A DNA stretch of 64,000 bases from Galbibacter pacificus. GTDB lineage: Bacteria > Bacteroidota > Bacteroidia > Flavobacteriales > Flavobacteriaceae. Location of the stretch: assembly GCF_029603165.1 (NCBI RefSeq), contig NZ_JAQSVC010000001.1, positions 310,001 to 374,000 of the forward strand, given 5' to 3'. Positions 26,606-61,299 of the stretch are shown piece after piece; within the stretch, counting starts at the first letter, position 1, and every line of letters begins with the position of its first letter. Both the position numbers and the translations under genes were made by a program. Under the pieces are notes generated by a model. It did no database searches. It was not told the DNA's origin and was given only the letters and a program-made list of their open reading frames with translations.

Positions 26606-26615
26606 ATTAAAAAAA

Positions 26616-28445: not shown

Positions 28446-28465
28446 TTGATTTAAATTCAAACCTT

Positions 28466-29188: not shown

Positions 29189-29202
29189 AATCAATTAGAA
29201 AA

Positions 29203-30642: not shown

Positions 30643-30661
30643 CTAAACTATATTTTAACGT

Positions 30662-31531: not shown

Positions 31532-31542
31532 AACTAACCATA

Positions 31543-32832: not shown

Positions 32833-32842
32833 CCTTATAGTT

Positions 32843-34108: not shown

Positions 34109-34155
34109 TGATATGAGCGAATTTAAATATATTTAATTTTTATAAAAATAGAAAA

Positions 34156-35166: not shown

Positions 35167-35209
35167 GAAAAACATTCTTACTATACAATCAGTTATATAG
35201 TTCGTTTTT

Positions 35210-37662: not shown

Positions 37663-40600
37663 ATGAAAAACAAAATTTTAGGTACCAGAAAACGTTCTGG
37701 TATGATGCAAAGCTTGTCTTGTACGATATTGCTTTGTATTTTATCGATTTCGTCAAATTTATTTGCACAGACAGCTTCAAACACACAACAGACTATAAAA
37801 GGGGTTGTTTATGATGAAAACAGCCAACCTATTCCAGGTGCTACTGTTATTGTAAAAGGGACATCCAAGGGGACTGCTACCGACTTTGACGGTAATTATG
37901 AATTAACCATAACTGAACCGGACGCTGTTCTAGAGTTTAGTTACATCGGTTATAAGACCATGGAACTTCCTATAAGCGGACAGACAATTATTGATGCTAC
38001 CATGGAACTGGATGTTGAAAGCTTGAAGGAAGTGGTAGTTGTAGGATACGGTACACAATTAAAAAGAGATGTAACCGGAGCTACCAGTACTGTAAAGGCA
38101 GAAGAAATTGTAAAAAGACCTATTGTTCAGGTTGAGCAGGCTCTGCAAGGAACCGCTTCAGGAGTTGTAGTTACACAAAATAGCGGGCAACCAGGACAAG
38201 GAATGAGTGTGCGAATTCGTGGTGCAAACTCCATTACAGGTAATAATGAACCTTTATATGTGATAGATGGGAATATTGGAGGGAATATTACCGGCCTTAA
38301 TCCTAATGATATAGAATCGATGGAAATTCTTAAAGATGCATCCGCAACAGCAATTTATGGATCTAGAGGAGCCAATGGAGTCGTATTGATAACTACCAAA
38401 ATGGGAAATTCAGGGAAAATGCAAGTTAACTTTAATACATGGTTAAGCAAGGCAAGTATACCCAAACATTTGGATTTAATGAATGCTTATGATTTTGCCA
38501 CTGTGGTTAATACTACGAATGTTTCCACGGGGGGATCACCGGCATTTACAGAGGAGGATTTGACCTATTTTCAAGAATGGGGCGGAACCGATTGGCATAA
38601 AGAATTAGAACAGAAGCCACTTATTCAAAATTACGATTTAAATATTTCCGGAGGTTCGCCTGAGATGAGATACAGGGTGTCGTATAACCATTTAGATCAA
38701 CCGGGACTTATTGTTAATCAGTATTTTAAGAAAGATATATTTAGGACAAATCTTGATTTAAAGGCAGGAGAACGAATTGATTTAAAGATAAATTTATCAG
38801 CACTTCAGAACAAAGGGAGGAATAATTCATATCAAGGAGACCTGACAGATCCTTTCTCACAAGCTAATATTTGGGATCCAACATCTCCAGTCAGAAATCC
38901 TGAAACAGGTCAATATATTAAAAACTCTACCTATGGATCAACCGGGTTTAATCCTGTTGCTCAAGCAAATGGTCAGTTGGAAGACACAAGTTCCAGAAGT
39001 ATTAATGGAACTGGGGTTTTGGTATATAGAATTACCGACGATCTTACATTTACAACTAATAATACGTATAATATGGGGTCAGGATATAATCAGGCATTTC
39101 GTGGACTGGATACCGATGAGGGAAATACGAACGGTGTTAGGGCTACTGTATATTCCAACAAATCATGGTCATTCCAGAACAGTAATTTTTTAACGTATAA
39201 AAAGAGTATCGGCGTTCATGATATTACTTTAATGGGCTTGTATGAGCAATACAAATATGAAAATGAATGGGTCCGTGCCAATTCTAATAATTTGTCAACA
39301 CCTTCATTAGGATATTACAATTTGGGATTGGGGGCCAGTCAACAAACAACATCAGGGTACACATCGGATGCATTACAATCCTATATGGTTAGGGTAAACT
39401 ATGCGTACAAGAATAAATATTTGTTAACCTCTAGTGTCCGCGTTGACGGATCTTCTCATTTAACAGATAAATACAGTATCTTTCCTTCTATAGCTTTAGG
39501 CTGGAATATTTCGGAAGAAAACTTTCTTAAGGATTCAGAGATATTGACAACCTTAAAACTTCGCGCAAGTTATGGAGAGACAGGAAATCAAGCCGTGGGT
39601 GCCTACTCAACCATTCCTAGAATTCAAACGGGAGGTCCGTATTTTTATGATGGCGTTACCCCAAGTGTGACTACTCCTTTAGGCCCACCCGTATCCTCGG
39701 ATTTAAAGTGGGAGATTACCAAACAAACGGACATAGGACTGGATATGGCATTCTTTTATGGAAGGCTAAATCTTGCAGTAGATGTTTATAATAAGAATAT
39801 CACGGATTTACTTTATAATTATCAAGCTCCATTTTACCTTGGGGGCGATAGCTACCAACGGAATTTGGGGGCATTGAACAATAAGGGGCTGGACTTTTCA
39901 ATTAGCGGAAACCCAATTGATGGCGATGCTTTTAGTTGGAGTACCAACTTTACAATGTCTTTTAACAGGAACAAAGTAAAAGATTTGGGCGGGTTGGATA
40001 ATATTCAGGTAAATAATATTGGATCTGCACAATCAGGAACTACTTATCTTAAGGTAGGAAGACCTCTTGGGGAATTTTATGGCTATAAATTTTTGGGGAC
40101 CTGGAAATCAAGTGAGGCAGCAGAAGCTGCTGAATATGGGATGCAGCCTGGTGATGCCAAATATGAAGATGTAAACGGAGATAATGTATACAATACTGAT
40201 GATCTTATGGTAATCGGTAATGGATCGCCAGATTTCTCATTTGGGTTCATTAATGATTTGAAATATCAAAATTTTACGTTGAGTTTTATGTTTCAGGGAA
40301 CGTCCGGAAATGAAATATATTCACAAACCATGGCCTACCTATGGGGAGGACAAGGGCAGGCAAAGACACCTACAACACAAGAAGCATTGAATATGTGGAC
40401 TCCAGAAAATGAAACAAATAATCCGGCCTTTAGTAATACGGGTAAGAATTTTATCAATAGTAGTCGTTATGTCTACGATGCCAGCTATATCAAACTGAAA
40501 AATATCTCTTTAGCCTATGACCTTCCTAAGGGGTTGTTGGATAAATTCGGGCTTAACAATATGCAAATATATATAAGCGGGCAAAATGTATTTACCATCA

Positions 40601-40722
40601 CAGATTATCCAGGTTATGATCCTGAGGTAAACAACGCTCAAAATGCATTGACTCAAGGACTGGAAATGGGAGTGATTCCGAATCCAAGAACCTATACCGT
40701 AGGGTTCCGGTTAGGGTTTTGA
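37663..40722 (+). CDS. SusC-family TonB-dependent receptor (second pair)
   Basis: A 1019-residue importer. A signal peptide ends near SSNLFAQ (about 36). The carboxypeptidase-regulatory-like domain reads TIKGVVYDENSQPIPGATVI. It is followed by LKEVVVVGYGTQLKRDVTGATSTV, the plug with RIRGANSITGNNEPLYVIDG and YGSRGANGVVLITTK, and a barrel ending in YTVGFRLGF. First gene of operon 2, behind the second conserved promoter element. It differs clearly from the first SusC, so the pairs probably import different oligosaccharides. Confidence 0.96.
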   Translation: MKNKILGTRKRSGMMQSLSCTILLCILSISSNLFAQTASNTQQTIKGVVYDENSQPIPGATVIVKGTSKGTATDFDGNYELTITEPDAVLEFSYIGYKTMELPISGQTIIDATMELDVESLKEVVVVGYGTQLKRDVTGATSTVKAEEIVKRPIVQVEQALQGTASGVVVTQNSGQPGQGMSVRIRGANSITGNNEPLYVIDGNIGGNITGLNPNDIESMEILKDASATAIYGSRGANGVVLITTKMGNSGKMQVNFNTWLSKASIPKHLDLMNAYDFATVVNTTNVSTGGSPAFTEEDLTYFQEWGGTDWHKELEQKPLIQNYDLNISGGSPEMRYRVSYNHLDQPGLIVNQYFKKDIFRTNLDLKAGERIDLKINLSALQNKGRNNSYQGDLTDPFSQANIWDPTSPVRNPETGQYIKNSTYGSTGFNPVAQANGQLEDTSSRSINGTGVLVYRITDDLTFTTNNTYNMGSGYNQAFRGLDTDEGNTNGVRATVYSNKSWSFQNSNFLTYKKSIGVHDITLMGLYEQYKYENEWVRANSNNLSTPSLGYYNLGLGASQQTTSGYTSDALQSYMVRVNYAYKNKYLLTSSVRVDGSSHLTDKYSIFPSIALGWNISEENFLKDSEILTTLKLRASYGETGNQAVGAYSTIPRIQTGGPYFYDGVTPSVTTPLGPPVSSDLKWEITKQTDIGLDMAFFYGRLNLAVDVYNKNITDLLYNYQAPFYLGGDSYQRNLGALNNKGLDFSISGNPIDGDAFSWSTNFTMSFNRNKVKDLGGLDNIQVNNIGSAQSGTTYLKVGRPLGEFYGYKFLGTWKSSEAAEAAEYGMQPGDAKYEDVNGDNVYNTDDLMVIGNGSPDFSFGFINDLKYQNFTLSFMFQGTSGNEIYSQTMAYLWGGQGQAKTPTTQEALNMWTPENETNNPAFSNTGKNFINSSRYVYDASYIKLKNISLAYDLPKGLLDKFGLNNMQIYISGQNVFTITDYPGYDPEVNNAQNALTQGLEMGVIPNPRTYTVGFRLGF

Positions 40723-42455: not shown

Positions 42456-44510
42456 ATGAAACATAAGGATAATAAATACCATTTAAATAAGTCATTGAAT
42501 CCAAAACGAGTAACAGTTTATAAGGGGATTTCAATTATAATGCCTTTTTTAATACTCGTTATTATGGAATTAATCCTCCGATTGTTTCACTATGGATATA
42601 ATCCAGATCTTTTTATACCCTATGATCAAGAAGGGGATTATCTTATTTTTAACCCAGAAGCCTCGAAAAAATACTTTTCGGATATCTCTTATGCAACACA
42701 GGGAAACCGTGAACCTTTTAAAAGGGAAAAGCCTTTCGGAACATATAGAATATTCGTTTTAGGGGAATCAACTACCCTTGGCTATCCTTATTTTCACAAC
42801 GGATCATTTCATAGGTGGTTGGAATATCGTTTTATGAAGGATTATCCAGAAAAGGATATCGAAATTATAAACTTATCATTAACAGCTGTAAATACATATA
42901 CCATTGCAGGGTTTGCCAAAAGGCTTTCCAGTTATAAACCAGATGCGGTATTAATCTATGTAGGGCACAATGAATATTATGGAGCCATGGGAATAGCATC
43001 TACGCAAACTATTGGAGCCAACCCAATATTGGTACAAAGTGTCATATATCTCAGGAAATTTAAAGTTGCCCAGCTAATTTCCAACACACTTACTGCCCTT
43101 CGGGGATTATGGAATGAAGAACCTGATTCGGAAAGTTCCAGAATGGCTTTGATGGTTAATAGTGATAATATTTCTTTTGATTCCATTCTTTATAAAAAAG
43201 GGCTTTATCAATTTGAATATAATCTTAATAGAACATTGAGACAATTTAGCAAAGAAGGGATTCCGGTTTATATAGGGAACCTTGTTTGTAATGAAAAAGA
43301 CTTGCCTCCATTTGAAAGCCATATTAGCGATGATACAGATAAGAAATTTATGCCTTTATTCGAACAGGGGGTAGAGGCAATTCGATTGAAAGATACATTA
43401 ACGGCGTTTCAATATTTGTCAAAAGCCAATAGTGTGTATTCAAGACATGCTCTATGCAATTATTATATGGGAACACTTTTTTATCAAAAAAGGTTATATG
43501 ACAGTGCAGCCTCCTATTTCTCAAAAGCTATAGATTTTGATGGCCTTAAATTTAGAGCACCTGGTAGTTTTAATGAAATCATCGAGACATTAGCTTCACG
43601 ATATGAGGGTGTATATTTGGTGGACTGTGACCAATTGTTCAGGAGAGCTTCCATACATAATATACCTGGAGATAATCTTTTTACTGATCACGTGCATCCA
43701 AACCTTAGAGGATATGCATTAATGAGTGATGCCTATTTCAGAAAATTAAAAGAAAGCGATGAGTTTTCATTTATGGTAAGAAAGGGCATTTCTCTCAAGG
43801 AGCTTTATAGGGAGATGCCCATTACAGCTTTAGACTCTTTATGTGGTAAATATCGTATACAGCATTTAAAGGCCTCATGGCCATATAAAAATGATTATAA
43901 ATGTAAGCTAAAAATAACTCTCCCCGAAGAAGAAATATCACAAAAAGTGGTCTCCCACAAGCTCAATTGGTTAAAAGCAAATCAGGATTTATATATGTAT
44001 TATGTACAAAATAATAAGCTGTACAATGCTTCAAAAGTTGCTGAATCGATGGTTTTAGAATTTCCGAAAGACCCAGTTTTTTCCAAAAAGGCGGCTCAGG
44101 TATATGGTCAAATAAATATACCGAAAAAAGCATTTTTTTATATGGAAAGATCATTTAAACAGCATTCCTCTTTGGATAAAGCACGATTCCTATTAGTATA
44201 TGCCTTAAAACTAGACGATCCTAAAACCGCTTTGTCTTATATAAATTATATCGGATTGAATGGCCGCTTTGAAAGGAACAGAATAACCCAGCTTATAAAA
44301 ACAACACGGGAAATTATAAAACTGAAGGATACCATAGAAAAAGCAAGTCAACCTATACCTATATGGTTGGATATTGCAGACAAGTATAAACTGTTAAATA
44401 CAAATGAAATGGCTATGGTATACCTGAAAAAAGTTTTAGAGGTGGATCAAGACAATAAAGCAGCTCAAAAATTACTTGCCAACATTAAGAAGAATATAGT
44501 AAAAGGATGA
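42456..44510 (+). CDS. membrane-anchored SGNH hydrolase-like protein with TPR repeats
   Basis: A 684-residue protein. One N-terminal membrane helix lies at about 25-44 (ISIIMPFLILVIMELILRLF), then an SGNH-type domain with FVLGESTTLGYP (Ser in block I), LIYVGHNEYYGA (Asn in block III) and FTDHVHPNLRGYA (Asp/His in block V). Between blocks III and V is an inserted helical, TPR-like stretch (about 300-370, ALCNYYMGTLFYQKRLYDSAASYFSKAI). More TPR-like repeats follow at about 505-684. Catalytic positions look present. It is coupled to the SxtJ-like gene by an ATGA overlap, so it belongs to the carbamoyltransferase cassette. The substrate is unknown; removal or transfer of an O-linked group is one possibility. 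Confidence 0.72.
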   Translation: MKHKDNKYHLNKSLNPKRVTVYKGISIIMPFLILVIMELILRLFHYGYNPDLFIPYDQEGDYLIFNPEASKKYFSDISYATQGNREPFKREKPFGTYRIFVLGESTTLGYPYFHNGSFHRWLEYRFMKDYPEKDIEIINLSLTAVNTYTIAGFAKRLSSYKPDAVLIYVGHNEYYGAMGIASTQTIGANPILVQSVIYLRKFKVAQLISNTLTALRGLWNEEPDSESSRMALMVNSDNISFDSILYKKGLYQFEYNLNRTLRQFSKEGIPVYIGNLVCNEKDLPPFESHISDDTDKKFMPLFEQGVEAIRLKDTLTAFQYLSKANSVYSRHALCNYYMGTLFYQKRLYDSAASYFSKAIDFDGLKFRAPGSFNEIIETLASRYEGVYLVDCDQLFRRASIHNIPGDNLFTDHVHPNLRGYALMSDAYFRKLKESDEFSFMVRKGISLKELYREMPITALDSLCGKYRIQHLKASWPYKNDYKCKLKITLPEEEISQKVVSHKLNWLKANQDLYMYYVQNNKLYNASKVAESMVLEFPKDPVFSKKAAQVYGQINIPKKAFFYMERSFKQHSSLDKARFLLVYALKLDDPKTALSYINYIGLNGRFERNRITQLIKTTREIIKLKDTIEKASQPIPIWLDIADKYKLLNTNEMAMVYLKKVLEVDQDNKAAQKLLANIKKNIVKG

Positions 44511-44902
44511 ATATGGGTATAAAATATAAGGAGATTTCAAAAGAACAAGCGATTGATTTTGGCTTGGTCTGCATATTGCTGGAAGCTATCTATGGGTTTA
44601 ATGAACCTGATAGAGTTATATATTTATTAATGGCCGGTTTAGTGTTGATATTATTGACTTTTCCTCTTTTGTTGAGGCCATTTGCTTTTTTGTGGTATGG
44701 TTTAGCTGGCATTTTAAATAGGGTAAGCAGTTTTTTAACCTTAAGTCTCGTTTATTTTTTGATGGTTACCCCTATTGGTTTCTTTAGAAAGCTATATATG
44801 AAAGATGGACTAATGCTTTATATGTTTAAAAAGGGGAACACATCTGTTTTTCATAATGTGGATAAGGATTTTACTTCTGGAGATTTTGAAAGAACCTTTT
44901 AA
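44507..44902 (+). CDS. SxtJ-like small membrane protein
   Basis: A 131-residue protein with two hydrophobic segments (about 38-58, VIYLLMAGLVLILLTFPLLL, and 70-92) and a soluble C-terminus ending DFTSGDFERTF. The early SKEQAIDFGLV, central FPLLLRPFAFLWYGLAGIL and following LSLVYFLMVTPIGFFRKL match SxtJ-family proteins, known next to carbamoyltransferases including in saxitoxin clusters. Function is unknown; a membrane partner of the transferase is the usual suggestion. It overlaps the previous gene by 4 bases. Confidence 0.75.
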   Translation: MNMGIKYKEISKEQAIDFGLVCILLEAIYGFNEPDRVIYLLMAGLVLILLTFPLLLRPFAFLWYGLAGILNRVSSFLTLSLVYFLMVTPIGFFRKLYMKDGLMLYMFKKGNTSVFHNVDKDFTSGDFERTF

Positions 44903-44915
44903 ACACTTTGCATCA

Positions 44916-45065
44916 ATGGATTTTATAGTAGAGCTATTTTATTTTCTGAAATATCGTAAGAAATACTGGATGATACCATTAATATGTACTCTTTTGGCAT
45001 TATCGCTCTTAATGATCGCTACGGGTATATCTGCACTTTCACCATTAATATATTCCGTTTTTTAG
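44916..45065 (+). CDS. DUF5989-like 49-residue membrane protein
   Basis: A micro-protein starting at the ATG at 44916 (MDFIVELFYFLKYRKKYWMIP) with a single membrane helix at about 21-44. The pattern of an aromatic FLKxRKKYW amphipathic segment before a hydrophobic helix is that of DUF5989, the small partner (SxtK-like position) next to SxtJ and carbamoyltransferase. A longer frame from 44856 overlaps the SxtJ-like gene and lacks support. The stop is immediately followed by the transferase ATG. Confidence 0.72.
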   Translation: MDFIVELFYFLKYRKKYWMIPLICTLLALSLLMIATGISALSPLIYSVF

Positions 45066-46868
45066 ATGAGTAGAATAGCAATCATAGGGATATCTGCCTA
45101 TTTCCATGATAGCGCAGTGGCATTAATTATAGATGGAGAAATTATTGCCGCAGCCCAAGAGGAAAGGTTTAGTAGAATAAAAAATGATGCTAGTTTTCCA
45201 ATTAACGCGTTGCGGTACATTTTGGAAAGGGCATATATGCATACAGATAAGATATCTGCCGTGGTTTTTTATGAAAAACCTTTTTTAAAGTTTGAGAGAA
45301 TCGTGGAGATGTACCACATATTTGCCCCATATGGATTTAAGAGCTTTTTGGAGGCTATACCAATCTGGATAAAGGAAAAGCTTTTTTTAAAACGGAAGAT
45401 ACAAGTTGAAATTAAAGGGCTAGGGCTGGGCAATGTACCGCTATTATTTTCTGAGCATCATTTGTCACATGCAGGAAGTGCGTTTTATCCTTCTCCATAT
45501 GAAAAAGCTGCAATATTAATAGTTGACGGTGTTGGGGAATGGGCAACCATGAGTATAGGATTTGGTTATGGAAAAAATATAAAAATCCTGAAGGAGTTAA
45601 GGTTTCCCCATTCATTGGGCTTATTCTATTCGGCTTTTACCCATTATTTGGGATTCCGGGTTAATAATGGAGAATATAAGGTAATGGGGTTAGCACCATA
45701 TGGCGATATAGGTTCAGAAGAGTGTCAAAGAGTATATAATACCTTGTTGTCCGAGGTGATTGATATTCGGGAAGACGGATCCATATTGCTCAACATGAAA
45801 TATTTTAATTATGTCAATGGCTTGACCATGACAAATAATGATGAAATATATAACCTCATACAAATACCATATCGTAAATCAGATGACATAATAACTCAAG
45901 GTCATAAGAATTTGGCAATGGCCATTCAGAAAATAACAGAAGAGGTAATGATTGCCCTGGCGAAAACAGCAAAGGAAATTACACAATGTAATTATTTGGT
46001 ATTGGCTGGAGGTGTTGCCCTTAACTGTGTGGCCAATACAAAAATATTGGAGTCCAACTTATATGGAGGTATTTGGGTACAGCCAGCGGCTGGCGATGCT
46101 GGTGGGGCCATAGGGGCTGCCTTGAATATATATCATCAGTATTTTCATCGACCCCGAACTGAAAACTATGCCCATAAAATTAGTTCGTATTATTTAGGGC
46201 CAAAATATAGCTTAAGTCAAATAGAAACAGTACTCCTAAAGAACCGTGTAAATTATAAGCAATTTCGTGATTCATTTCAACTATACAATGAGGTTGCCTG
46301 TATGTTGGAAAAAGGAGCGGTAGTTGGTTGGTTTCAAGGAAGAATGGAGTTCGGGCCAAGGGCATTAGGGAATAGAAGTATTCTAGCAGACCCTAGATTA
46401 ATTGAAATGCAAAAGCACCTAAATCAAAAAGTAAAATTTAGGGAAGACTTTCGCCCTTTCGCTCCTTGTGTTCTCAAAGAGGATTTCGAAGAATATTTTA
46501 TGGGGAAAGGAATTTATGATTACATGTTATTTGTAGCCTATTGCAAGGAACATCAGCCATTGAAAGGAGATAAAAACAAGGAAGTTTTAAAAAAAGATTT
46601 GAATGTATTTCCCGCAGTTGTCCATTTGGATTATTCTTCAAGGGTCCAATCTGTAGACCGTACCCATAATGAAAAATTATGGAAACTGCTTAAGGCTTTT
46701 AAGAAGAAGACCGGGGTTGGGATGTTGGTTAATACCTCTTTTAATGTCATGGATGAGCCTATTGTTTGCTCACCAGAAGATGCCTATAGGAATTTTATAA
46801 AGTCAGGAATAGATGTTCTTGTAATGGAAAATTTTTTAATTAAAAAGTATAACAAATGCTCTCTTTGA
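45066..46868 (+). CDS. O-carbamoyltransferase (NodU/CmcH/SxtI family)
   Basis: A 600-residue cytosolic enzyme. The N-terminal ASKHA-fold domain has GISAYFHDSAVALI (His14), EERFSRIKND, SEHHLSHAGSAFY (His131, His132, His135), LIVDGVGEWATMS, and NGEYKVMGLAPYG. The C-terminal YrdC-like part has WFQGRMEFGPRALGNRSILADPR, REDFRPFAPCVL and VGMLVNTSFNVMDEP. These are the family signatures for transfer of a carbamoyl group from carbamoyl phosphate via carbamoyl-adenylate to a hydroxyl. The acceptor is unknown. Located inside a PUL between SusD and glycosidases, in a cassette with SGNH-TPR, SxtJ-like and DUF5989-like genes. It overlaps the next gene by 13 bases. Confidence 0.9.
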   Translation: MSRIAIIGISAYFHDSAVALIIDGEIIAAAQEERFSRIKNDASFPINALRYILERAYMHTDKISAVVFYEKPFLKFERIVEMYHIFAPYGFKSFLEAIPIWIKEKLFLKRKIQVEIKGLGLGNVPLLFSEHHLSHAGSAFYPSPYEKAAILIVDGVGEWATMSIGFGYGKNIKILKELRFPHSLGLFYSAFTHYLGFRVNNGEYKVMGLAPYGDIGSEECQRVYNTLLSEVIDIREDGSILLNMKYFNYVNGLTMTNNDEIYNLIQIPYRKSDDIITQGHKNLAMAIQKITEEVMIALAKTAKEITQCNYLVLAGGVALNCVANTKILESNLYGGIWVQPAAGDAGGAIGAALNIYHQYFHRPRTENYAHKISSYYLGPKYSLSQIETVLLKNRVNYKQFRDSFQLYNEVACMLEKGAVVGWFQGRMEFGPRALGNRSILADPRLIEMQKHLNQKVKFREDFRPFAPCVLKEDFEEYFMGKGIYDYMLFVAYCKEHQPLKGDKNKEVLKKDLNVFPAVVHLDYSSRVQSVDRTHNEKLWKLLKAFKKKTGVGMLVNTSFNVMDEPIVCSPEDAYRNFIKSGIDVLVMENFLIKKYNKCSL

Positions 46869-48136
46869 AAATCTTTATAAAACCGAAAGCTGTAATCTAT
46901 CTCTGTATTTTCTCTTTGTTTTTTTTCAGAAATGGTTATGCACAAAAAAGCGGAGATTTTTATTTTGATCGAAGGGGAATCTCGCAAAATGTACTGGAAA
47001 ATTACCTTGACAGGGCTGTTACGATGGTTTATTTTTTAATGCCAGAGAAACCTGAAGGAAAGAGATTGTATCCTTTTCATCAAGATGATGTACGACTAAT
47101 CCAAAATATTCACCCCAAATTTATTGGAAGGTCTATTTACAGATGGGGAGGAGAGGCTTTGTTAAATAAAGACTCTTTTTGGGATACGGCCCAAAAATGG
47201 GTTGACACTATTCATAAATTTGACCGTGAAATTATTTTTCAGGGCTGTTTATTCGAGATTGTTACTAAAGAAGTCGACCAAGTTCAGATTCCAAATTGGG
47301 TATTTAAGGATTTTGGAATTCCTGTGGAAGAAAGAACATTTATATATGCTAAAATGCTTAATAAGAGCGGAATGTATGTAGATCATTGGAGAAAAGGGAG
47401 TAGTGTCCCTGATATAAGCAGAAAAGAAACCCAAATGTGGTTTTATTATTTGGCTGCATCATATATAAAAATAGGGTGTGAAGCATTACATCTGGGGCAG
47501 GTTGAGCTAATAGGCATGAATGACCATGATTTAGAATATTGGAAATTCTTAATAGATAAAATAAGGCTTTTCGCAACTCGTAATGCACGTCGTAATTGGG
47601 TTTTATTAGATGCTCATGTCCCCAATCACGGAATGATCAAAAATGGTGAAAGTTTAATTGATTTTAATTCATTTCCACTTCGTATAAAGGAAACCCCTGA
47701 AAATTTTTTAGAAGGGAAGTTAGAAGTAGGATATCTGGATGCTTTATATACAAAAAGCAAGGGCTGTTATAGTCCGAGCGGATGGAAATGTGAACATCTT
47801 CCTTATCTGGTAGAGTTCGATAATTACGGGAGGGGAAAAACTCCCAATCAAGCAGACCTTACAACACATTTTGTATGGGGTTGGGATGAAATTTCATGGT
47901 TTTCACTCCAAAAAGAACCATATAGGAACAAATGGTTATCCTATGCATATCATTGGATTAAGGATACAGATTCATATGGTCATTTACAAATGCCCATAAA
48001 TAGAATGATTTCATGTCCAAATAATAGCCAGGGAAGTTATCGAGCCAATACGAAATCCGGAAATTGCCCCATAGGATATAATCAAGAAGAAACCATTAAG
48101 GCATTATGGTTTAATAATAACAAACAGAAAAAATAA
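46856..48136 (+). CDS. secreted protein of unknown family, possible TIM-barrel glycosidase
   Basis: A 426-residue protein with a signal peptide ending near RNGYAQ (about 30). I do not recognise the family. Notable are YRWGGEALLNKDSFW, IIFQGCLFEIVTKEVDQV, GCEALHLGQVELIGMNDHDLEYW, NWVLLDAHVPNHGM, and FVWGWDEISWF. Strand-ending acidic residues spaced across a W/Y-rich protein of this length suggest a TIM-barrel hydrolase, but no known catalytic signature is matched. It starts inside the carbamoyltransferase gene and is 12 bases before GH92. Confidence 0.5.
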   Translation: MLSLKIFIKPKAVIYLCIFSLFFFRNGYAQKSGDFYFDRRGISQNVLENYLDRAVTMVYFLMPEKPEGKRLYPFHQDDVRLIQNIHPKFIGRSIYRWGGEALLNKDSFWDTAQKWVDTIHKFDREIIFQGCLFEIVTKEVDQVQIPNWVFKDFGIPVEERTFIYAKMLNKSGMYVDHWRKGSSVPDISRKETQMWFYYLAASYIKIGCEALHLGQVELIGMNDHDLEYWKFLIDKIRLFATRNARRNWVLLDAHVPNHGMIKNGESLIDFNSFPLRIKETPENFLEGKLEVGYLDALYTKSKGCYSPSGWKCEHLPYLVEFDNYGRGKTPNQADLTTHFVWGWDEISWFSLQKEPYRNKWLSYAYHWIKDTDSYGHLQMPINRMISCPNNSQGSYRANTKSGNCPIGYNQEETIKALWFNNNKQKK

Positions 48137-48148
48137 TATCTACTTGCG

Positions 48149-50389
48149 ATGGGTTCAAAAATAATGGTCAAATGGATACTAAATATATTGTCTTGTATTC
48201 CATTGATACTACAAGCACAAGAGGAGAATTTTACGGATTATGTTGACCCATTCATTGGATCGGGTGGACACGGTCATGTTTTTATAGGAGCTAATGTTCC
48301 CTTCGGAGGGGTGCAACTAGGGCCAAATAATATTTATAAAGGATGGGACTGGTGTTCGGGCTATAATTATGCTGACAGTCTTATCATAGGTTTTTCTCAT
48401 TTAAGGCTTAGTGGAACCGGAATCGGTGACTTGGGCGATATTTTGATAATGCCTTATACCGGTAAAGTCAAATTGAATAAGGGAAAGCAGGAATTCCCTC
48501 ATAATGGGTATTTGTCAACCTTTAGCCATAATAAAGAGAAAGCTGAACCAGGTTATTACAAAGTAACGATGGATAATAAGGTAATTGTAGAATTGACTAG
48601 TACCGAAAGAGTAGGATATCATAAATATCAATTTCCGCCTGATGAGCAATCACAAATTATAATTGACCTAACCGAAGGGATTAACGACCAAACAAAAGAG
48701 GCCTTCTTAGAACGTGTAGACAGCCATACCTTGATAGGATATCGTTATTCCTCAGGTTGGGCTAAAAATCAAAAAATTTATTTTGCTATTAAAACCTCTA
48801 AAGCCATTGAATCTTTGGAAATATATAGTAATAATAATCGACTGATAGAATCCGAGAGTTATACCGCTACCATGATAAAGGGGTTAATTAGGTTTAAAGA
48901 AAGTCCTTTGGATTATGAAATGAAAGTTGGAATTTCACCTGTAAGTACTAAGAATGCCCTGTATAATATAGATAAGGAGGTGCCGGACTGGGATTTTGAT
49001 AAAATAAAGAAGAAAGCAAGAATAAAATGGAATAATGAACTTTCAAAAATAGAGGTTAGTAGAGAAGATTCAGTAGCAACAAAGATTTTTTATACCTCTA
49101 TGTACCACTTGTTTATGCACCCTTCTTTATTTAATGATGCTAATGGGGATTACAGGGGGGCTGATGGGAAAGTATATACGAATAAACGATTTAATAACTA
49201 TAGTGTTTTTTCAACCTGGGACACTTATCGAGCAGTACATCCATTATTTACACTATTACAACCCAAACGTATTAATGATTTTATCGATAGTATGCTTTCC
49301 ATTGAAATACAACAGGGATATTTGCCTGTTTGGCACCTCCATGGGAATGAAACAGGAACCATGGTGGGGATTAGTAGTCTGCAAATTATAGCGGAAGCAG
49401 TTATTAAAGGATATGATGGTTTTGATGTTGACAAAGCATATCAGGCTGTAAAAAGAACCTCTATGTCTGATGTTAGGGGGATGGATTATGTAAAAAATTT
49501 AAAACCAATCCCATCAGATAGCAATGTCAAAGAACCTTTAGCGATGGGTATGGAGCTAGCTATAGGTGACGGTAGTACTGCCTTAATGGCTCAATACTTG
49601 GGGAATAAAGAGGATTATGAGTATTTCTATAAACGCTCCATGAATTATAAATTGTATTATGATGATGATAAGGGGTTTTTTAGGGGAAAACTTTCAGATG
49701 GCTCGTGGAATCCACATTTTGATCCATTTGTTTCAACTGGTCAACGGGCAGAAGATTTTACGGAAGGGAATGCTTGGCAGTACCTATGGTTGGTCCCTCA
49801 GGATGTACATGGCTTAATCTCTTTATTGGGAGGGGATTTGGCATTTAATGAGCGTTTGGATCAGTTCTTTCATGTGGAATCTCCGCATGAAGAGGTACTG
49901 GTTGATCTTTCTGGAGCTATTGGGCAATATGCACATGGTAACGAACCAAGTCATCACATTGCCTATTTATATAACTATAGTGGAGCCCAGTGGAAATCAG
50001 CAGAAAAGATACGTCATATTACAACTTCGTTTTATCATGCATTACCCGATGGAATTATTGGAAATGAAGACTGTGGTCAGATGTCTGCGTGGTATATATT
50101 TTCATCTATGGGATTTTATCCGGTATTTCCGGCATCTGGCAAGTATGTTTTTGGGAGCCCTTTATTCAAAAAAGTTAATTTGAATTTGCCAAATGGAAAA
50201 AGCTTGTTGATCGAGACAGAAAGCAATGGTCTTGAAAATCTTTATATCCAAAAGATATTTTTCAATGAGAAACCTCTATACAACTCATATATTACCCATG
50301 ATCAACTTTTAGAAGGAGGGAAATTAAAGTTTGTAATGGGAAATCAACCAAATAAGCAATTCGGACAAAATATAATTAATCGACCATAA
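48149..50389 (+). CDS. GH92 alpha-mannosidase
   Basis: A 746-residue protein with a signal peptide ending near LILQAQ; the ATG at 48164 is an alternative start. The N-terminal domain has YVDPFIGSGGHGHVFIGANVPFGGVQLGP. The catalytic (alpha/alpha)6 domain has YSVFSTWDTYRAVHPLF, TEGNAWQYLW, GNEPSHHIAYLYNYSG and GNEDCGQMSAWYIFSSMGFYPV, the full canonical GH92 set. GH92 enzymes are calcium-dependent inverting exo-alpha-mannosidases, most often alpha-1,2. It indicates alpha-mannose in the target glycan. Confidence 0.92.
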   Translation: MGSKIMVKWILNILSCIPLILQAQEENFTDYVDPFIGSGGHGHVFIGANVPFGGVQLGPNNIYKGWDWCSGYNYADSLIIGFSHLRLSGTGIGDLGDILIMPYTGKVKLNKGKQEFPHNGYLSTFSHNKEKAEPGYYKVTMDNKVIVELTSTERVGYHKYQFPPDEQSQIIIDLTEGINDQTKEAFLERVDSHTLIGYRYSSGWAKNQKIYFAIKTSKAIESLEIYSNNNRLIESESYTATMIKGLIRFKESPLDYEMKVGISPVSTKNALYNIDKEVPDWDFDKIKKKARIKWNNELSKIEVSREDSVATKIFYTSMYHLFMHPSLFNDANGDYRGADGKVYTNKRFNNYSVFSTWDTYRAVHPLFTLLQPKRINDFIDSMLSIEIQQGYLPVWHLHGNETGTMVGISSLQIIAEAVIKGYDGFDVDKAYQAVKRTSMSDVRGMDYVKNLKPIPSDSNVKEPLAMGMELAIGDGSTALMAQYLGNKEDYEYFYKRSMNYKLYYDDDKGFFRGKLSDGSWNPHFDPFVSTGQRAEDFTEGNAWQYLWLVPQDVHGLISLLGGDLAFNERLDQFFHVESPHEEVLVDLSGAIGQYAHGNEPSHHIAYLYNYSGAQWKSAEKIRHITTSFYHALPDGIIGNEDCGQMSAWYIFSSMGFYPVFPASGKYVFGSPLFKKVNLNLPNGKSLLIETESNGLENLYIQKIFFNEKPLYNSYITHDQLLEGGKLKFVMGNQPNKQFGQNIINRP

Positions 50390-50411
50390 TTTTAAATTAA
50401 ATTACCATAGA

Positions 50412-52667
50412 ATGATTAAATCCAAAAAAGCAATTTTCATAGGGTTATTACTAATGCTCTATGGGTGTACCTATAATACTCTTAACCCTATATATAAAGA
50501 TGCTTCCCAATCTGTAGACAGTAGAGTGGCAGACCTTATTTCTAAAATGACCCTGCAAGAGAAAATAAAACAAATGGATATGTATTGGGGCAAGGAGGTG
50601 GCCATCATGAAGGGACATGATGCAATAAAGTTTTCTGAAGAAAAAATTTCACAAATGATGGATTCGTCTGGAATGGGATCAATTCATGATTTTTACCCAT
50701 TAGATCCTAATATTGGCAATCAAATACAAAAATATGCTTTAGAAAAAACCAGATTAGGAATTCCAGTTATGTTTATAGAGGAAGGGTTACATGGCTATTC
50801 TGGTAAAAATAGTACTACTTTTCCCGTTCCATTACAACTTGCCAGTGCCTGGGATTCTACTCTGGTTAAAAAGATAGGTAGGGTAATAGCCAGTGAGAGT
50901 CGTATGCACGGTATACATATGATACTGGGGCCGGTCTTGGGACTTGCCAGGGATCCGAGATGGGGACGAGTAGAAGAAACCTTTGGGGAAGATCCATATC
51001 TAACTGCCTTAAATGGAACTGCCATGGTTATGGGGTTGCAAGGGGATACCTTAAGTAATGACAATGCCGTTATTGCAGAGCCCAAACATTTTGCCATACA
51101 TAGTATTCCGGAAGCAGGAAGTAACATAGCTCCAGCATATATTGGGGAAAGAGAAGCTAGATCTAGCTTTTTGGTGCCGTTTGAGATGGCTGTCCGTAAA
51201 GGAAAGGCAAAAGGGATCATGGCTGCATATCATGAACTGGACGGCGTCCCTTGTGTATTTAATAAATGGCTTTTAAAATCGGTTTTACGTGACGAATGGG
51301 GCTTTAAAGGGTTTGTATTGTCTGATCTTGGAGCTATTCGAATGACTATTGAAAATCATAAAGTAGTAAAAGATACTGTAGAGGCCTTAGCCAATACTCT
51401 AAATGCGGGCTTAAATATGCAGTTTTACGATTTTAAACATGAAAGTTTTATGGATGCCATAGTGCAGGCAGTCGATCAGGGGCTATTAGATATGGAAACT
51501 ATTGATGATGCCGTTGGGGATATTTTGAGGCTAAAGTTTGAACTGGGTCTTTTTGATAACCCGTATGTGAAGGTAAATAATAATTCGGATTTTCATAACA
51601 AGAAGCATCAATACCTGGCTTTGGAAGCAGCCCAAAAAAGTATTGTATTGCTTAAAAATGAAAAGGGGATATTGCCTATATCAGGGAAATACGAAAATAT
51701 CGCTATAATCGGGGATTTAGCTACCAGCACTTATCCAGGAGGATATTCCAATCCAGATAAGAAAACAATTTCAATTTTAGAAGGATTAAAACAACGCTTG
51801 GCAACTTCAAAAAGCATTCAATACGAAAAGGGATACAGCTTGAAAGATACATTGGATTCAGAAAAATTAAAGACATCTGCTGTTAAAGTGTCTCAGGCAT
51901 CAGATCTAGCTATCGTAGTTATAGGTGAAAACATTGAAAAGGTTGGAGAAGGAAAAGATCGTTCAGATTTGGAACTTGATTCGAATCAATTGGAATTGCT
52001 AAAAGCAGTCTATGGAACAGGAACCCCTGTGGTTGCTATATTATTTAATGGACGACCCCTAGGTTTAAATTGGGTAGACGAACATATACCTTCTATTGTT
52101 GAATCATGGTTCTCCGGAGAAAAAAATGGTTTGGCCGTTGCAGATGTTTTATCCGGAACAGTGAACCCTTCCGGAAAGCTTCCTATAAGTTTTCCCAGAT
52201 CTGTGGGACAACTTCCTTTTTATTATAACCATAAGCCCTCCTCCAAACATAATTATGTAGATATCGACAATACACCTTTATATAGCTTTGGACATGGTTT
52301 GAGCTATACAACCTATGCATATTCTAATTTGCGATTATCGTCTTCGGAAATAGGAATAGAAGACTCCTTAACGGTTAAAATGACCATAACAAATACAGGA
52401 TCACGCTCAGGGGAAGAAGTGGTACAAGTTTATCTAAACGATATGATAAGCAGCGTGACTACCCCGGTAAAATCTCTTTGTGGTTTTAAAAAAGTATTTC
52501 TGGAGCCCAAAGAGAGTAAATCTATAAGTTTTCAACTGCATAATGAAGCCTTTAGACTTTGGAACCAAGAAATGAAACACCTAGTTGAGCCTGGAACCTT
52601 TCAAATTATGATAGGAAGTAGCGCTGGCGATATACGATTAATAAAGAATATTGAAATCAAAAAATAA
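50412..52667 (+). CDS. GH3 beta-glycosidase lipoprotein
   Basis: A 751-residue GH3 enzyme with lipobox LYGC (Cys19). The N-terminal barrel has RDPRWGRVEETFGEDPYL, AEPKHFAIHSIPEAG and GFVLSDLGAIRMT with the probable nucleophile Asp305. The alpha/beta sandwich has LLKNEKGILPIS and SGKLPISFPRSVGQLP, and an FN3-like C-terminal domain contains SGEEVVQVYLND. GH3 activities include beta-glucosidase, beta-xylosidase and others. Its stop overlaps the GH2 start (TAATG). Confidence 0.92.
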   Translation: MIKSKKAIFIGLLLMLYGCTYNTLNPIYKDASQSVDSRVADLISKMTLQEKIKQMDMYWGKEVAIMKGHDAIKFSEEKISQMMDSSGMGSIHDFYPLDPNIGNQIQKYALEKTRLGIPVMFIEEGLHGYSGKNSTTFPVPLQLASAWDSTLVKKIGRVIASESRMHGIHMILGPVLGLARDPRWGRVEETFGEDPYLTALNGTAMVMGLQGDTLSNDNAVIAEPKHFAIHSIPEAGSNIAPAYIGEREARSSFLVPFEMAVRKGKAKGIMAAYHELDGVPCVFNKWLLKSVLRDEWGFKGFVLSDLGAIRMTIENHKVVKDTVEALANTLNAGLNMQFYDFKHESFMDAIVQAVDQGLLDMETIDDAVGDILRLKFELGLFDNPYVKVNNNSDFHNKKHQYLALEAAQKSIVLLKNEKGILPISGKYENIAIIGDLATSTYPGGYSNPDKKTISILEGLKQRLATSKSIQYEKGYSLKDTLDSEKLKTSAVKVSQASDLAIVVIGENIEKVGEGKDRSDLELDSNQLELLKAVYGTGTPVVAILFNGRPLGLNWVDEHIPSIVESWFSGEKNGLAVADVLSGTVNPSGKLPISFPRSVGQLPFYYNHKPSSKHNYVDIDNTPLYSFGHGLSYTTYAYSNLRLSSSEIGIEDSLTVKMTITNTGSRSGEEVVQVYLNDMISSVTTPVKSLCGFKKVFLEPKESKSISFQLHNEAFRLWNQEMKHLVEPGTFQIMIGSSAGDIRLIKNIEIKK

Positions 52668-55600
52668 TGATAGAAAATAAAATTTTTTTTAAGGTACTTT
52701 TTTCATGTACTCTAACCTTTGCACTATGTTTCATTAGTATAGAAATCAGGGCTCAGGATCAAACGTATAACAAGGTTTTTAATCCTGTAAAAGGCATGGT
52801 AAGAACTTATGAAAAACCATATAGGGATGAGATTTCCCTTAATGGGAAATGGAAGTTTATGCCAGTGATGGCGAAAGATACCTCTATGTTTATAAGACCG
52901 GATGTTTTTCAATGGGAGAATACACCACTTAAGATTCCATCTCCATGGAATGTAAATTCATTTGCAGGGCAAAAAGGAGGAGATTTCGTGACCTATCCAT
53001 CTTACCCCAAATCATGGGAAAGCGCAAGTATTGGATGGATGCAAAAAGAATTTGAGATTCCTGAATATTGGTTGGGGAATAAACTCATATTGCATTTTAA
53101 AGCCATAGCCGGATATGCTAAAATATATGTAAATGGTAATTTTGTGGGGGAGAACCTCGATATATTTTTTTCAACTATAGTTGATGTTTCGAAATATCTA
53201 AAAGAAGGAAAAAATGTATTAACCGTTGGTATAGCTAAAGCAAGCTTAACAGATGACCAGGGAAGGTATGGTCGACGAAATTACATTGCCGGATCATTTT
53301 GGGGACAGCATATAGCCGGAATTTGGCAAGATGTTTCTTTAATAAAGGTTCCACAGATTAATATCTCAGACGTATACATACAGCCTAAAGTTTCCAAAGA
53401 TGAACTGACCCTAGCCATAAAGCTTAAAAACAATGGCCATAAAGATGAAAAAATAAAACTACAAACATCAATACAGGTTTGGAACAGGCCACAACCGTTA
53501 AGTATAGATAACCTTGCTGAGATTGATGGATTGGAAAAAGAGGTGTTTTCTATAAAATATCCCCAATTAATAAATATTGCCGTAGGGGATAGTGTCGTTG
53601 TGTATCTTCATACCAAAGTTGATGGACGGTTACAATACTGGACGCCGGACACTCCAAATTTATATGGAGCTGTTGTAAAGTTGACAAAAGCCTCCGATAA
53701 TACAGTCCTTGATCAAAAGTATACCCGTTTTGGGTGGCGGGAATTTAAAATTAGGGGGCAAAATTTATATTTAAATGGACGTCCGATAGAACTTAAAGGG
53801 GATTCTTGGCATTTTATGGGAATTCCCCAAATGACCCGGAGATATGCCTGGGGATGGTTTAAAATGTTAAAAGATGCGAAAGCCAATGCAGTTCGATTAC
53901 ATGCACAACCCTTTCCGGATTTTTATTTGGATATGGCAGATGAAATGGGGATTTGTGTATTGGATGAAACGGCTATATGGTCCAGTGACGGTGGACCGAG
54001 AATGGATTCTGAAGCTTATTGGACTTCTGCAAAATCTCATGTAAAAAATTTGGTATTGCGTGACAGAAATCATCCTGCAGTATTTGGATGGAGTGTTTGT
54101 AATGAAACGCTTCCCGTAGCGATTCATGTTTTTCATGCTCCCGAGACTATCATACAACGACAAATAACTGAAATCAACAACTGGATTTCAATAGTAAGGG
54201 AAACAGATTCTACAAGGAACTGGATTTCGGGTGATGGAGAAACAATGAAGCCTACTCATCTTCCGACAGTTATCGGTCATTATGGAAATGAAGAATCTAT
54301 GAAAGAATGGTCGACAATGGGAAAACCATGGGGGATTGGAGAAACTGGAATGGCTTATTATGGAACCCCAAAACAAGTCGCCACTGTAAATGGAAATAGG
54401 GCCTATGAGTCTCAATTAGGTAGGATGGAGGGGTTGGCAACGGAGGCTTACAAACTTTTAAACTTACAAAAAAAATATAACGCTGTTTACCGTAGCATAT
54501 TTAATATAATTTGGTACGGACTTAAACCATTGCCATTGGGGCTTGATAATACCAGTCGTTCCGCCACATTAGAGGATGGTATATTTTTTACTGCATACAA
54601 AGAGGGGCAGCCTGGGGTACAACCGGAACGTTTGGGGCCATATACCACTACATTAAATCCTGGCTATGATCCCAATTTGCCACTTTATGAGCCTTGGCCA
54701 TTGTTCGAAGCTGTAAGGGCTGCAAATAGTAATGATGAATTTGTTATTGGAGACAACCCTATTGAAAAGAATTTTAACCAATCGTCGGCCCCGGCTCCAA
54801 GATCAACATTTATAGTTTCAGGTGAACAAAGCAGAATTTATTCCTACTTAACAGATCTGGGGGTAAATAAGGTAAGCTATAAAAGGGCGGGTATTGTTAT
54901 TGTTGATGCTACCAACCCAGGGGATATCATAAAAGCTAAGAAATATATTCAAAACGGTGTTAGAAAGAATAAAACTTTCTTAATTATGGGAATACACCCC
55001 GGGGCAATTTCCTGGCTGACTGAAAGTGTACCTTTTCCTATTAAAATAACAAATAGAAAAGCGACATCCTTTCTTTTAGGCAAACCTGACATTATCAATA
55101 TGAATATTAATAATGAAGACTTATACTTCAGTGAGTTAGTTAAAAATCCAGTTATGGAAAATGGGTTGTTTATAGACAGCCCCCAAGCAGTATCAATTAT
55201 TGAAGCATCAAATACAGATTGGGCTTTATGGAATGGACAGGCTGAATATCAAAAAACAGCAGCGGTATATAAAAATGAACTTTTAAAAAAGGAATCTGGC
55301 ATTGCCTTATATAAGGTGGATACTGGTAGAGGGGTTTATTATCTAACTACTTTAAAACTACTTGATTTAAGAAATAATGCTGATTGGTTAATAAAAAAAA
55401 TGTTATCCAATTTGGGCGTAACATTTAATGAGCTTTCTGTAAAAGATCTTTCAGTTATGGACAATGACGGTGTGATTGACAGGGCATTATATCTAGAAGA
55501 GGGTTCTCAAATTTTAAACATGGATATTGAGAATATCAATGAGGATATAATAACAGAAAAGGTCGTTACATCTAATAATTCAGGATATATTAAAATACCA

Positions 55601-55936: not shown

Positions 55937-55947
55937 GATTAAGAAAT

Positions 55948-58803: not shown

Positions 58804-58823
58804 TAAATAAATTATTTCATTTT

Positions 58824-61298: not shown

Positions 61299-61299
61299 T

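Follow-up and report, generated by a model that had tools for sequence, protein, structure and literature searches.

The arrangement of four genes in a PUL of Galbibacter pacificus is above chance: their exact order recurs in three other contigs, and they co-occur strongly over genomes. These genes probably attach carbamoyl groups to sugars at the cell envelope, and the module looks like a regular PUL accessory, not a chance passenger. The reading preferred here, held tentatively and at a little under an even chance, is a membrane-docked O-carbamoylation module in which a class III O-carbamoyltransferase (CT) and two small membrane proteins would work inside and an SGNH-TPR protein outside, the whole having been recruited into PULs. 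PULs are usually seen as machines that bind, cut and import, and to our knowledge no PUL model includes a carbamoylation module. If the reading is true, an ATP-consuming carbamoylation recurs at SusC/SusD, so that part of glycan traffic is chemically tagged, and a job is suggested for two uncharacterised families of small membrane proteins, SxtJ and DUF5989.

The locus and its four proteins

The locus lies in a 64,000-nucleotide stretch of DNA, called the window, with these features:

37663..40722, + strand: SusC (TonB-dependent transporter); Pfam Plug 67 bits, CarbopepD_reg_2 71 bits
40773..42314, + strand: SusD; Pfam SusD_RagB 94.6 bits, SusD-like_3 93.6 bits
42456..44510, + strand: SGNH-TPR protein, 684 aa; Pfam PF13472 and catalytic residues
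44507..44902, + strand: SxtJ-like small membrane protein, 131 aa; Pfam SxtJ below cut-off, hydrophobic segments
44916..45065, + strand: DUF5989 small membrane protein, 49 aa; Pfam PF19451
45066..46868, + strand: class III O-carbamoyltransferase, 600 aa; Pfam Carbam_trans_N/C
46856..48136, + strand: 426-aa protein with hydrophobic N-terminus; no Pfam family at E 0.01
48149..63618, + strand: glycosidase genes GH92, GH3, GH2, GH3, GH95, GH92; Pfam

The four-gene unit described in the first-pass annotation is real, consisting of four plus-strand ORFs joined exactly as given there, by an ATGA overlap (SGNH-TPR/SxtJ-like), a 13-base gap (SxtJ-like/DUF5989) and a zero-base gap (DUF5989/CT). Pfam matches of the flanking genes bear out its placement between SusC/SusD and the glycosidases, and the tandem SusC/SusD pair with carbohydrate-active enzymes makes the locus a PUL. 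An intergenic gap of 141 bases separates SusD from SGNH-TPR; a TANNTTTG-like box was noted by eye immediately upstream of 42456 and set aside. A further overlap, absent from the first-pass annotation, links the cassette to the glycosidase genes: the last 13 bases of the CT gene are shared with the next ORF. Relatives of the 426-aa protein encoded by that ORF share loci with SGNH-TPR in L082 and L085, and relatives of the window SusC occur in L080, L081 and L084 (1337-1357 bits; self 2309) and in L083 (1110 bits).

The CT matches Carbam_trans_N at 264.4 bits (cut-off 24) and Carbam_trans_C at 225.4 bits (cut-off 27), while the NodU model matches at 136.9 bits, far under its 1000-bit cut-off; the closest solved relatives are 7xb6, 9s2t, 7vyj and 3ver. 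Residues H14, H131, H135, D154 and D344, invariant in 114/114 aligned CT frames, correspond by motif, without direct alignment, to the general-base histidine and the two histidine and two aspartate iron ligands of GdmN, given as H27, H133, H137, D156 and D333 in passages of PMC9633730. The first-pass annotation had let a PUL role hinge on the catalytic histidines appearing in an alignment with TobZ; they are kept, as judged from the GdmN motifs. A gene beside the second CT of the genome (L047:12089-13621) looked like an MBOAT by eye and was set aside, having no Pfam match at E 0.01.

Of the two small proteins, the first scores 20.7 bits against Pfam SxtJ (PF19588), under the curated cut-off of 24.4, and is therefore named SxtJ-like only. 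It has at least two hydrophobic segments, 37-55 and 69-87 (alignment A3 of 32), and a PDB sequence search with SxtJ gave no match. The second matches PF19451 at 65.6 bits (cut-off 27) over positions 1-49 of 49 and has one TM helix, 20-38. Two longer DUF5989 frames, of 633 aa (G565) and 434 aa (G477), were inspected as candidate fusions to a larger protein (L207, L189) and were not shown to be fusions.

The SGNH-TPR protein belongs to the PF13472 (Lipase_GDSL_2) superfamily, with a score of 43.7 bits (cut-off 32.9) and with what we take to be the Ser, Asn and Asp/Glu-x-x-His blocks of SGNH proteins. S105, N172, H412 and H414 are invariant in 129/129 aligned frames, position 411 is Asp or Glu, and 60/60 aligned members match Lipase_GDSL_2. 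One N-terminal TM helix (residues 25-43, by Kyte-Doolittle only) is followed by the SGNH domain and by TPRs, whose matches fall below threshold; against the PDB, the SGNH-TPR profile gave solely TPR-stretch matches among the best 60 of 389. This conservation of hydrolytic residues, together with the uniform Lipase_GDSL_2 matches, is what favours a carbamoyl esterase, by which a tag placed by the CT on a lipid-linked or envelope sugar would be stripped outside for editing, recycling or self-protection. SGNH-fold hydrolases and transferases use identical residues, so these do not separate the two activities, and a pair that makes and unmakes the same group would be costly. The likeness to the acetyltransferase family ALGX is weak, with matches below cut-off in 5 of the 28 small SGNH candidates scanned; ALGX does not appear among the 25 of 41 Pfam families shown for 60 SGNH-TPR members. 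An esterase is considered unlikely.

Co-occurrence of the four genes

The counts that follow treat related genomes, which are not independent; genes at surveyed loci were called by simple ORF picking, and locus markers were labelled from phmmer seeds, several of them named by eye, with Pfam run on some. Among 397 genomes of the same family, SGNH-TPR was found in 11 and DUF5989 over cut-off in 22, and 10 of those 11 carry both. The eleventh, G157, holds an SGNH-TPR fragment with a stop beside a 62-aa CT remnant, one case of joint decay of SGNH-TPR and CT. Species-wide, the best 80 of 391 SGNH-TPR loci, a sample biased to the relatives of the window, have CT or DUF5989 alongside in 44; the remaining 36, with no cassette in their flanks, have DUF5989 elsewhere in the assembly in 32 and CT elsewhere in 32. 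Where at least 5 kb is available on both sides (49 of the 80), CT or DUF5989 is present in 33.

Viewed from the transferase, 51 of 76 CT+DUF5989 loci have an SGNH-family gene no more than 5 kb from the CT, and just 8 such genes lie farther away in the same stretches; the profile used found none within 5 kb of the CT in the other 25. The 51 genes comprise 33 SGNH-TPR and 18 others, of which Pfam backs 16 as SGNH at E ≤ 0.01 (7 over cut-off); the small SGNH-type genes of L028 and L044, included in the 51, are without Pfam support. SGNH-CT and SxtJ-CT distances correlate (r 0.80 and 0.89; 0/2000 permutations as high), with shared ancestry not removed. DUF5989 stands without CT in the fetched stretch at 23/99 loci of the two DUF5989 samples and at 29/144 over all scanned loci. 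Clustering of 121 loci yielded no common fifth gene, the next family after SGNH, DUF5989, CT and two SxtJ groups being SusC, in 25 loci. Similar parts exist on Sinorhizobium meliloti pSymB and in named Christiangramia, Flagellimonas, Maribacter and Dyadobacter strains. The first-pass idea that the SGNH-TPR protein may act with the transferase is supported.

The PUL setting and the proposed mechanism

Catabolic settings go with the SGNH-TPR form in the family sample: SusC and SusD lie within about 10 kb of 9/10 cassettes with SGNH-TPR and of 0/11 without it (Fisher p = 3.4e-5). This sample used 21 of the 22 genomes with DUF5989 over cut-off, the window's included; left out were G067 (28.4 bits over 34 of 49 positions, on a short contig and without a CT seed hit) and two sub-cut-off hits, and L039 was entered manually as SGNH-TPR, its gene lying just beyond the fetched stretch and being seen in L113 and L252. 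Of the 11 cassettes without SGNH-TPR, 8 carry a smaller gene that Pfam matches to an SGNH-type family (2 over cut-off). Species-wide, a catabolic marker accompanies 37/44 cassette-bearing loci, and SGNH-TPR is the gene immediately after SusD in 16 of 42 loci, a set that holds two loci twice (L029/L109, L038/L128), none among the 16. The order SusC-SusD-SGNH-SxtJ-DUF5989-CT is identical in L083, L098 and L114. A phylum sample of one genome per genus gave a weak catabolic excess for SGNH-TPR loci (14/26 vs 7/29, p = 0.03); it covers 78/85 genera, one of them represented by other than its first-listed genome, and omits the window's own genus, one family genus and five more with weak or contig-end hits. 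The first-pass annotation had named random positions genome-wide, with no link to SusCD loci, as evidence against a PUL role, and the family and species-wide counts uphold that link; its view that the unit is unexpected in a PUL gives way, the unit recurring in PULs of relatives.

Hitch-hiking, also raised there, would make the unit a mobile cassette that landed in often-exchanged PULs with no functional tie. The patchy distribution (22/397 family genomes, and 0/2 other genomes of the same genus) and stand-alone copies in L089 and L093 fit this, as does the window SusD, which has no close orthologue in the 397 family genomes (best other match 41% identity), so that the whole block looks acquired. 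Set against this, 172 SusD in 9 genomes predict at most 0.88 of 9 cassettes with SusD within 10 kb and 8/9 were observed, and two distinct CT sets in the tree are linked to PULs. The adjacency to SusD and the decay in G157 also led to its rejection as the general case, and hitch-hiking is very unlikely.

A closer contender, possible though rather doubtful, is that the carbamoylated product of the module is a glycan of the envelope, unrelated to the PUL substrate, with the PUL position giving co-regulation only. Some cassettes lie in exopolysaccharide settings; in one family (code f24) the module stands among housekeeping genes (L174 and L187, inspected gene by gene); and the pSymB module has no SusCD annotated nearby. 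Cassette-bearing loci also differ in their catabolic genes, which include xylan markers, a Glycoamylase-family gene and a sulfatase. However, it is SGNH-TPR, not just the cassette, that sits directly behind SusD of several kinds, and Dyadobacter keeps SusC-SusD-SGNH-TPR together though its CT lies elsewhere with its own small SGNH-like gene.

In the membrane-docked module preferred here, the CT would use carbamoyl phosphate and ATP in the cytosol to form carbamoyl-adenylate, and would then carbamoylate a hydroxyl, as the chemistry of its family and the conservation of its active site suggest. The SxtJ-like and DUF5989 proteins, from their size, hydrophobic segments and co-occurrence, may tether the CT to the membrane and either present a membrane-borne acceptor or carrier or hand it on. 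SGNH-TPR, anchored by its N-terminal helix, would place its catalytic domain on the far side of the membrane, where it would most likely be a transferase, like the SGNH domains of transmembrane acyl-transfer systems, with the TPRs perhaps holding a partner protein. Co-expressed with SusC/SusD and the glycosidases, the module would modify a PUL-handled glycan or one of the envelope that is required alongside. Bacteroidota PULs appear to have acquired the SGNH-TPR version more than once, given the two PUL-linked CT sets and the several kinds of SusD; in the CT tree (a quick search with SH-aLRT only, four loci entered twice: L038/L128, L031/L104, L029/L109, L039/L113), the window CT falls inside a 19-row set (SH-aLRT 98) in which SGNH-TPR is present for 17 rows. 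Counting against the preferred reading are the f24 modules among housekeeping genes, the weak catabolic excess in the phylum sample, the 7/44 cassette-bearing loci that lack a catabolic marker (two of them, from Christiangramia, consist of just the four genes), the CT of Dyadobacter at a site away from SGNH-TPR, the DUF5989 loci without CT, the CT+DUF5989 loci without a nearby SGNH gene, and the lack of an AT3 or MBOAT match in the unit. A more specific version, put forward as a long shot, is a carbamoyl-tagging relay without AT3 or MBOAT, in which CT, SxtJ and DUF5989 would charge a membrane-borne carrier and SGNH-TPR would carbamoylate, in the periplasm, SusCD-imported oligosaccharides or the surface glycan that holds them; an anabolic step would then stand within glycan catabolism.

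Comparison with known systems

Class III CTs are described in parts of PMC9633730 as modifiers of secondary metabolites, which together with the SxtJ name favours a role in making some small carbamoylated natural product, by analogy with the clusters for saxitoxin or antibiotics. The first-pass comparison with saxitoxin stands for the family name SxtJ and fails beyond it: among those window proteins that were scanned against Pfam, neither a further sxt-type gene nor any natural-product gene was recognised, and the recurrent neighbours of the surveyed cassettes are sugar genes. With agreement in family name only, saxitoxin-like biosynthesis was rejected, and a natural-product role is highly improbable. 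The class III CTs TobZ, GdmN and NodU have both domains, the general-base histidine and the iron ligands in common with the window CT; unlike them, the latter has genes for SxtJ, DUF5989 and an SGNH protein beside its own, within a PUL, and membrane docking is probable. WapO, called a putative heptose carbamoyltransferase in the parts of PMC8005017 on the Pseudomonas LPS core, would also carbamoylate an envelope sugar, but from an LPS core locus.

The pSymB module of S. meliloti (KEM44_09010 to 09025) matches the profiles built for this analysis at 71 (SxtJ), 84 (DUF5989) and 958 bits (CT). Its neighbour is annotated as an SGNH/GDSL hydrolase, with PF13472 at its 32.9-bit cut-off; this protein is unlike that of the window, with no SGNH-TPR profile match at E 1e-3, no TPR match and a gene on the opposite strand.

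The AT3-SGNH proteins OafB and OatA resemble the proposed module in how they work, and in that only: a cytosolic activated donor, a membrane part and an SGNH domain with Ser-His-Asp/Glu, which in the window unit would likewise lie outside. AlgI-AlgJ/AlgX and PatA-PatB are further SGNH-dependent transmembrane acyl-transfer systems. The features of SGNH acyl transfer in OafB are treated in parts of PMC9833829. No AT3 or MBOAT match is listed for the four cassette proteins in Pfam at E up to 1; compared with the AT3/MBOAT-SGNH systems, the window unit has two very small membrane proteins instead, a carbamoyl donor (proposed) and added TPRs.

The four-gene unit and its catalytic residues

The first-pass annotation had described four genes at 42456-46868 of the window, and four plus-strand ORFs lie there. 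The window itself is G000:C11:310001-374000 in an assembly of 4.04 Mb and 21 contigs.

Products of the four-gene unit
Within 42456-46868, + strand: SGNH-TPR (SGNH domain with TPRs), 684 aa, one N-terminal hydrophobic helix; Pfam SGNH 43.7 bits, over cut-off
Within 42456-46868, + strand: SxtJ-like protein, 131 aa; Pfam SxtJ 20.7 bits, under the 24.4 cut-off
Within 42456-46868, + strand: DUF5989 protein, 49 aa; Pfam 65.6 bits, over cut-off
Within 42456-46868, + strand: class III O-carbamoyltransferase (CT), 600 aa; Pfam 264 and 225 bits, over cut-off

SusC and SusD genes lie upstream of this unit, and GH92, GH3, GH2, GH3, GH95 and GH92 genes follow downstream in that order. The CT gene shares 13 bases with the next ORF (46856-48136), which matches no Pfam family at E 0.01; its 426-aa product has a hydrophobic N-terminus, and relatives adjoin SGNH-TPR in locus L082 and are also found in the polysaccharide utilisation locus (PUL) of L085. 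A second SusC/SusD locus occupies 23420-36961, with two GH43 and two GH99 matches below cut-off. The best family match of the window SusD is only 41% identical, and this lack of a close orthologue within the family suggests that the PUL block was acquired from outside it. The sole DUF5989 match of the genome is the window's own. The genome also encodes a second carbamoyltransferase (L047, G000:C11:672420-673397; 562-aa frame, Carbam_trans_N 96.8 bits), with sulfate-activation-like genes upstream and apparent nucleotide-sugar genes after it, as judged by eye.

The catalytic histidines of the transferase, singled out for checking in the first-pass annotation, are kept. H14, H131, H135, D154 and D344 of the window CT are invariant in 114/114 aligned CT frames, and were assigned by motif to the general base (H27) and four iron ligands (H133, H137, D156 and D333) given for GdmN (PMC9633730). 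The nearest solved structures are themselves CTs (7xb6, 9s2t, GdmN and TobZ). SGNH-TPR residues Ser105, Asn172, His412 and His414 are invariant in 129 aligned frames, and position 411 carries either Glu (95 frames) or Asp (34 frames); a few loci are present twice in each of these two alignments.

Association with SusC/SusD loci

The DUF5989 marker was found at E <=0.001 in 24 of 397 same-family genomes (22 over cut-off), in neither of two other same-genus genomes, and in 134 of 395 genomes of the phylum-wide draw (132 over cut-off). Family cassettes were compared in 20 stretches of ~20 kb plus the window, leaving out genome G067, barely over cut-off, and two sub-cut-off hits. SGNH-TPR is present in 10 of these 21, counting L039, where the gene is visible through the overlapping L113 and L252 and through the SGNH-TPR profile search. 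SusC and SusD occur inside the stretch in nine of the ten cassettes with SGNH-TPR vs none of the 11 without it (Fisher p = 3.4e-5); in the tenth, L031, GH3 and GH95 genes adjoin instead. At least two exopolysaccharide markers accompany 4 of the 11. Small-SGNH seeds, derived from those same loci, match 10 of the 11, and Pfam Lipase_GDSL_2 matches eight of the 11 at E <=0.01, two of the 11 being over cut-off. The first-pass annotation had proposed a neighbourhood survey of the PUL link, and the link exceeds what the density of SusD genes would give by chance: with 172 SusD genes in ~34.2 Mb (SusD_RagB search, nine SGNH-TPR genomes), chance would place SusD within 10 kb either side of at most 0.88 of nine cassettes, and eight of nine were observed.

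A one-genome-per-species scan returned 391 SGNH-TPR relatives, and among the best 80 of these, 44 have CT or DUF5989 in their flanks (24/24 in Flavobacteriia). Catabolic markers accompany 37 of these 44 loci (the exceptions being L089, L090, L093, L107, L110, L120 and L150), with SusD in 28, xylan genes in seven and GH13 in six, and two exopolysaccharide markers occur together in none of the 44. Pfam confirmed GH67, UxuA, acetylesterase and LacI in L038 and GH115 in L037. Of the 42 loci having both genes, 16 show SGNH-TPR following a same-strand SusD at a distance of less than 400 bases. The order SusC, SusD, SGNH-TPR, SxtJ, DUF5989, CT is identical in the window, L083 (a Bacteroidales MAG), L098 and L114, whereas L088 and L092 have the small genes swapped and extra genes inserted. 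Three Dyadobacter genomes carry a window-type SusC-SusD-SGNH-TPR arrangement, with CT, DUF5989 and SxtJ elsewhere beside a small SGNH-like gene (28.6 bits, under cut-off, in L253; 38.7 bits in L256). Large FG-GAP plus UnbV_ASPIC proteins recur near PUL-linked cassettes (L034:12247-15537, by Pfam, and others; FG-GAP alone in L088).

Co-occurrence of SGNH-TPR and the transferase

Of the 397 family genomes, 11 were found to have the gene by a profile of nine SGNH-TPR proteins, and ten of these 11 are DUF5989 genomes. The eleventh, G157, retains a fragment covering 185/602 profile positions with an internal stop; a 62-aa CT remnant adjoins it (L251:9830-10399), amid apparent uronate and pentose genes, and these remnants are a decayed cassette. 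Among the 36 other genomes of the best 80 of 391, many with incomplete flanks and assemblies, DUF5989 occurs elsewhere in 32 and CT elsewhere (E <=1e-60) in 32; three lack both, one lacks DUF5989 only and one CT only. Two SGNH-TPR genes, tandem or neighbouring, occur at single loci in L134, L135 and L150.

By an iterated profile, 51 of the 76 CT plus DUF5989 loci (family and phylum samples) have an SGNH-family gene no more than 5 kb from CT, and these stretches contain eight more such genes at greater distances. SGNH-TPR accounts for 33 of the 51; the other 18 match Pfam Lipase_GDSL_2 at E <=0.01 in 16 cases and over cut-off in seven, the small candidates in L028 and L044 having no such support at E 0.01. 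Sub-cut-off matches to ALGX (AlgX acetyltransferase family) were seen in 5 of 28 small SGNH candidates scanned.

In a quick CT tree (114 rows, 110 different), the window CT falls in a 19-row set (SH-aLRT 98) with SGNH-TPR in 17. The xylan-type loci fall in another set, of 25 rows (SH-aLRT 91, or 100 for 24 of the rows), and every row of that set has SGNH-TPR. CTs from loci with at least two exopolysaccharide markers fall outside both sets, and the SGNH-TPR label changes 15 times on the tree vs 33 expected after shuffling. Pairwise distances correlate between SGNH and CT (r 0.80, 69 loci) and between SxtJ and CT (0.89, 65 loci), with 0/2000 permutations as high, although common descent by itself can produce such correlations.

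Settings outside PULs and likeness to known systems

The four-gene unit is a real, recurrent module, and it looks like a general envelope module drawn into PULs rather than a PUL invention, because several settings depart from a purely catabolic one. In the phylum sample, which takes one genome per genus (55 CT plus DUF5989 loci), the excess of catabolic markers is weak (14/26 with vs 7/29 without SGNH-TPR, p = 0.03 only), GH13 being found in 14 loci with SGNH-TPR and seven without. The module lies amid housekeeping genes in the f24 family (L174 and L187 examined), and the four genes stand by themselves in two Christiangramia loci. DUF5989 occurs without CT in the fetched stretch at 23 of 99 loci of two DUF5989 samples, and pSymB of Sinorhizobium meliloti carries a similar module, annotated as SGNH/GDSL hydrolase, two hypothetical proteins and carbamoyltransferase.

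In L171, L189, L206 and L217, where DUF5989 has no CT in the same stretch, the adjoining genes look by eye like MacB/FtsX-type permeases, so a second partner of DUF5989 besides CT may exist. Directly downstream of another lone DUF5989 gene lie carA (Pfam CPSase_sm_chain) and an apparent carB (L215:9942-11339), whose products make carbamoyl phosphate. An apparent carB also lies upstream of the CT cassette in L043.

The literature search found no paper on DUF5989, and judged by their titles, all matches for SxtJ with carbamoyltransferase dealt with saxitoxin or with algae and cyanobacteria that form toxins. Going by title or abstract start, the unit is not described among the matches listed for carbamoyltransferase with PUL or SusD, SGNH with polysaccharide, SGNH gene clusters in Bacteroidetes, carbamoylated exopolysaccharide, xylan PUL with TonB, LPS, or pSymB with SGNH. 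The unit is an unusual union of ordinary enzymes, with no prior description found in the open-access literature searched.

The CT family is established to form carbamoyl-adenylate from carbamoyl phosphate and ATP and then to transfer the carbamoyl group to an acceptor (PMC9633730). By its gene content, the unit would act as a carbamoylation module, in which CT would be docked through SxtJ and DUF5989, the acceptor would be membrane-borne and the SGNH step would face outward. In AT3-SGNH proteins such as OafB, the SGNH triad is required for acyl transfer (PMC9833829). Neither AT3 nor MBOAT is matched in the four-gene unit, which is therefore not itself one of those systems, though by analogy it may work like them.
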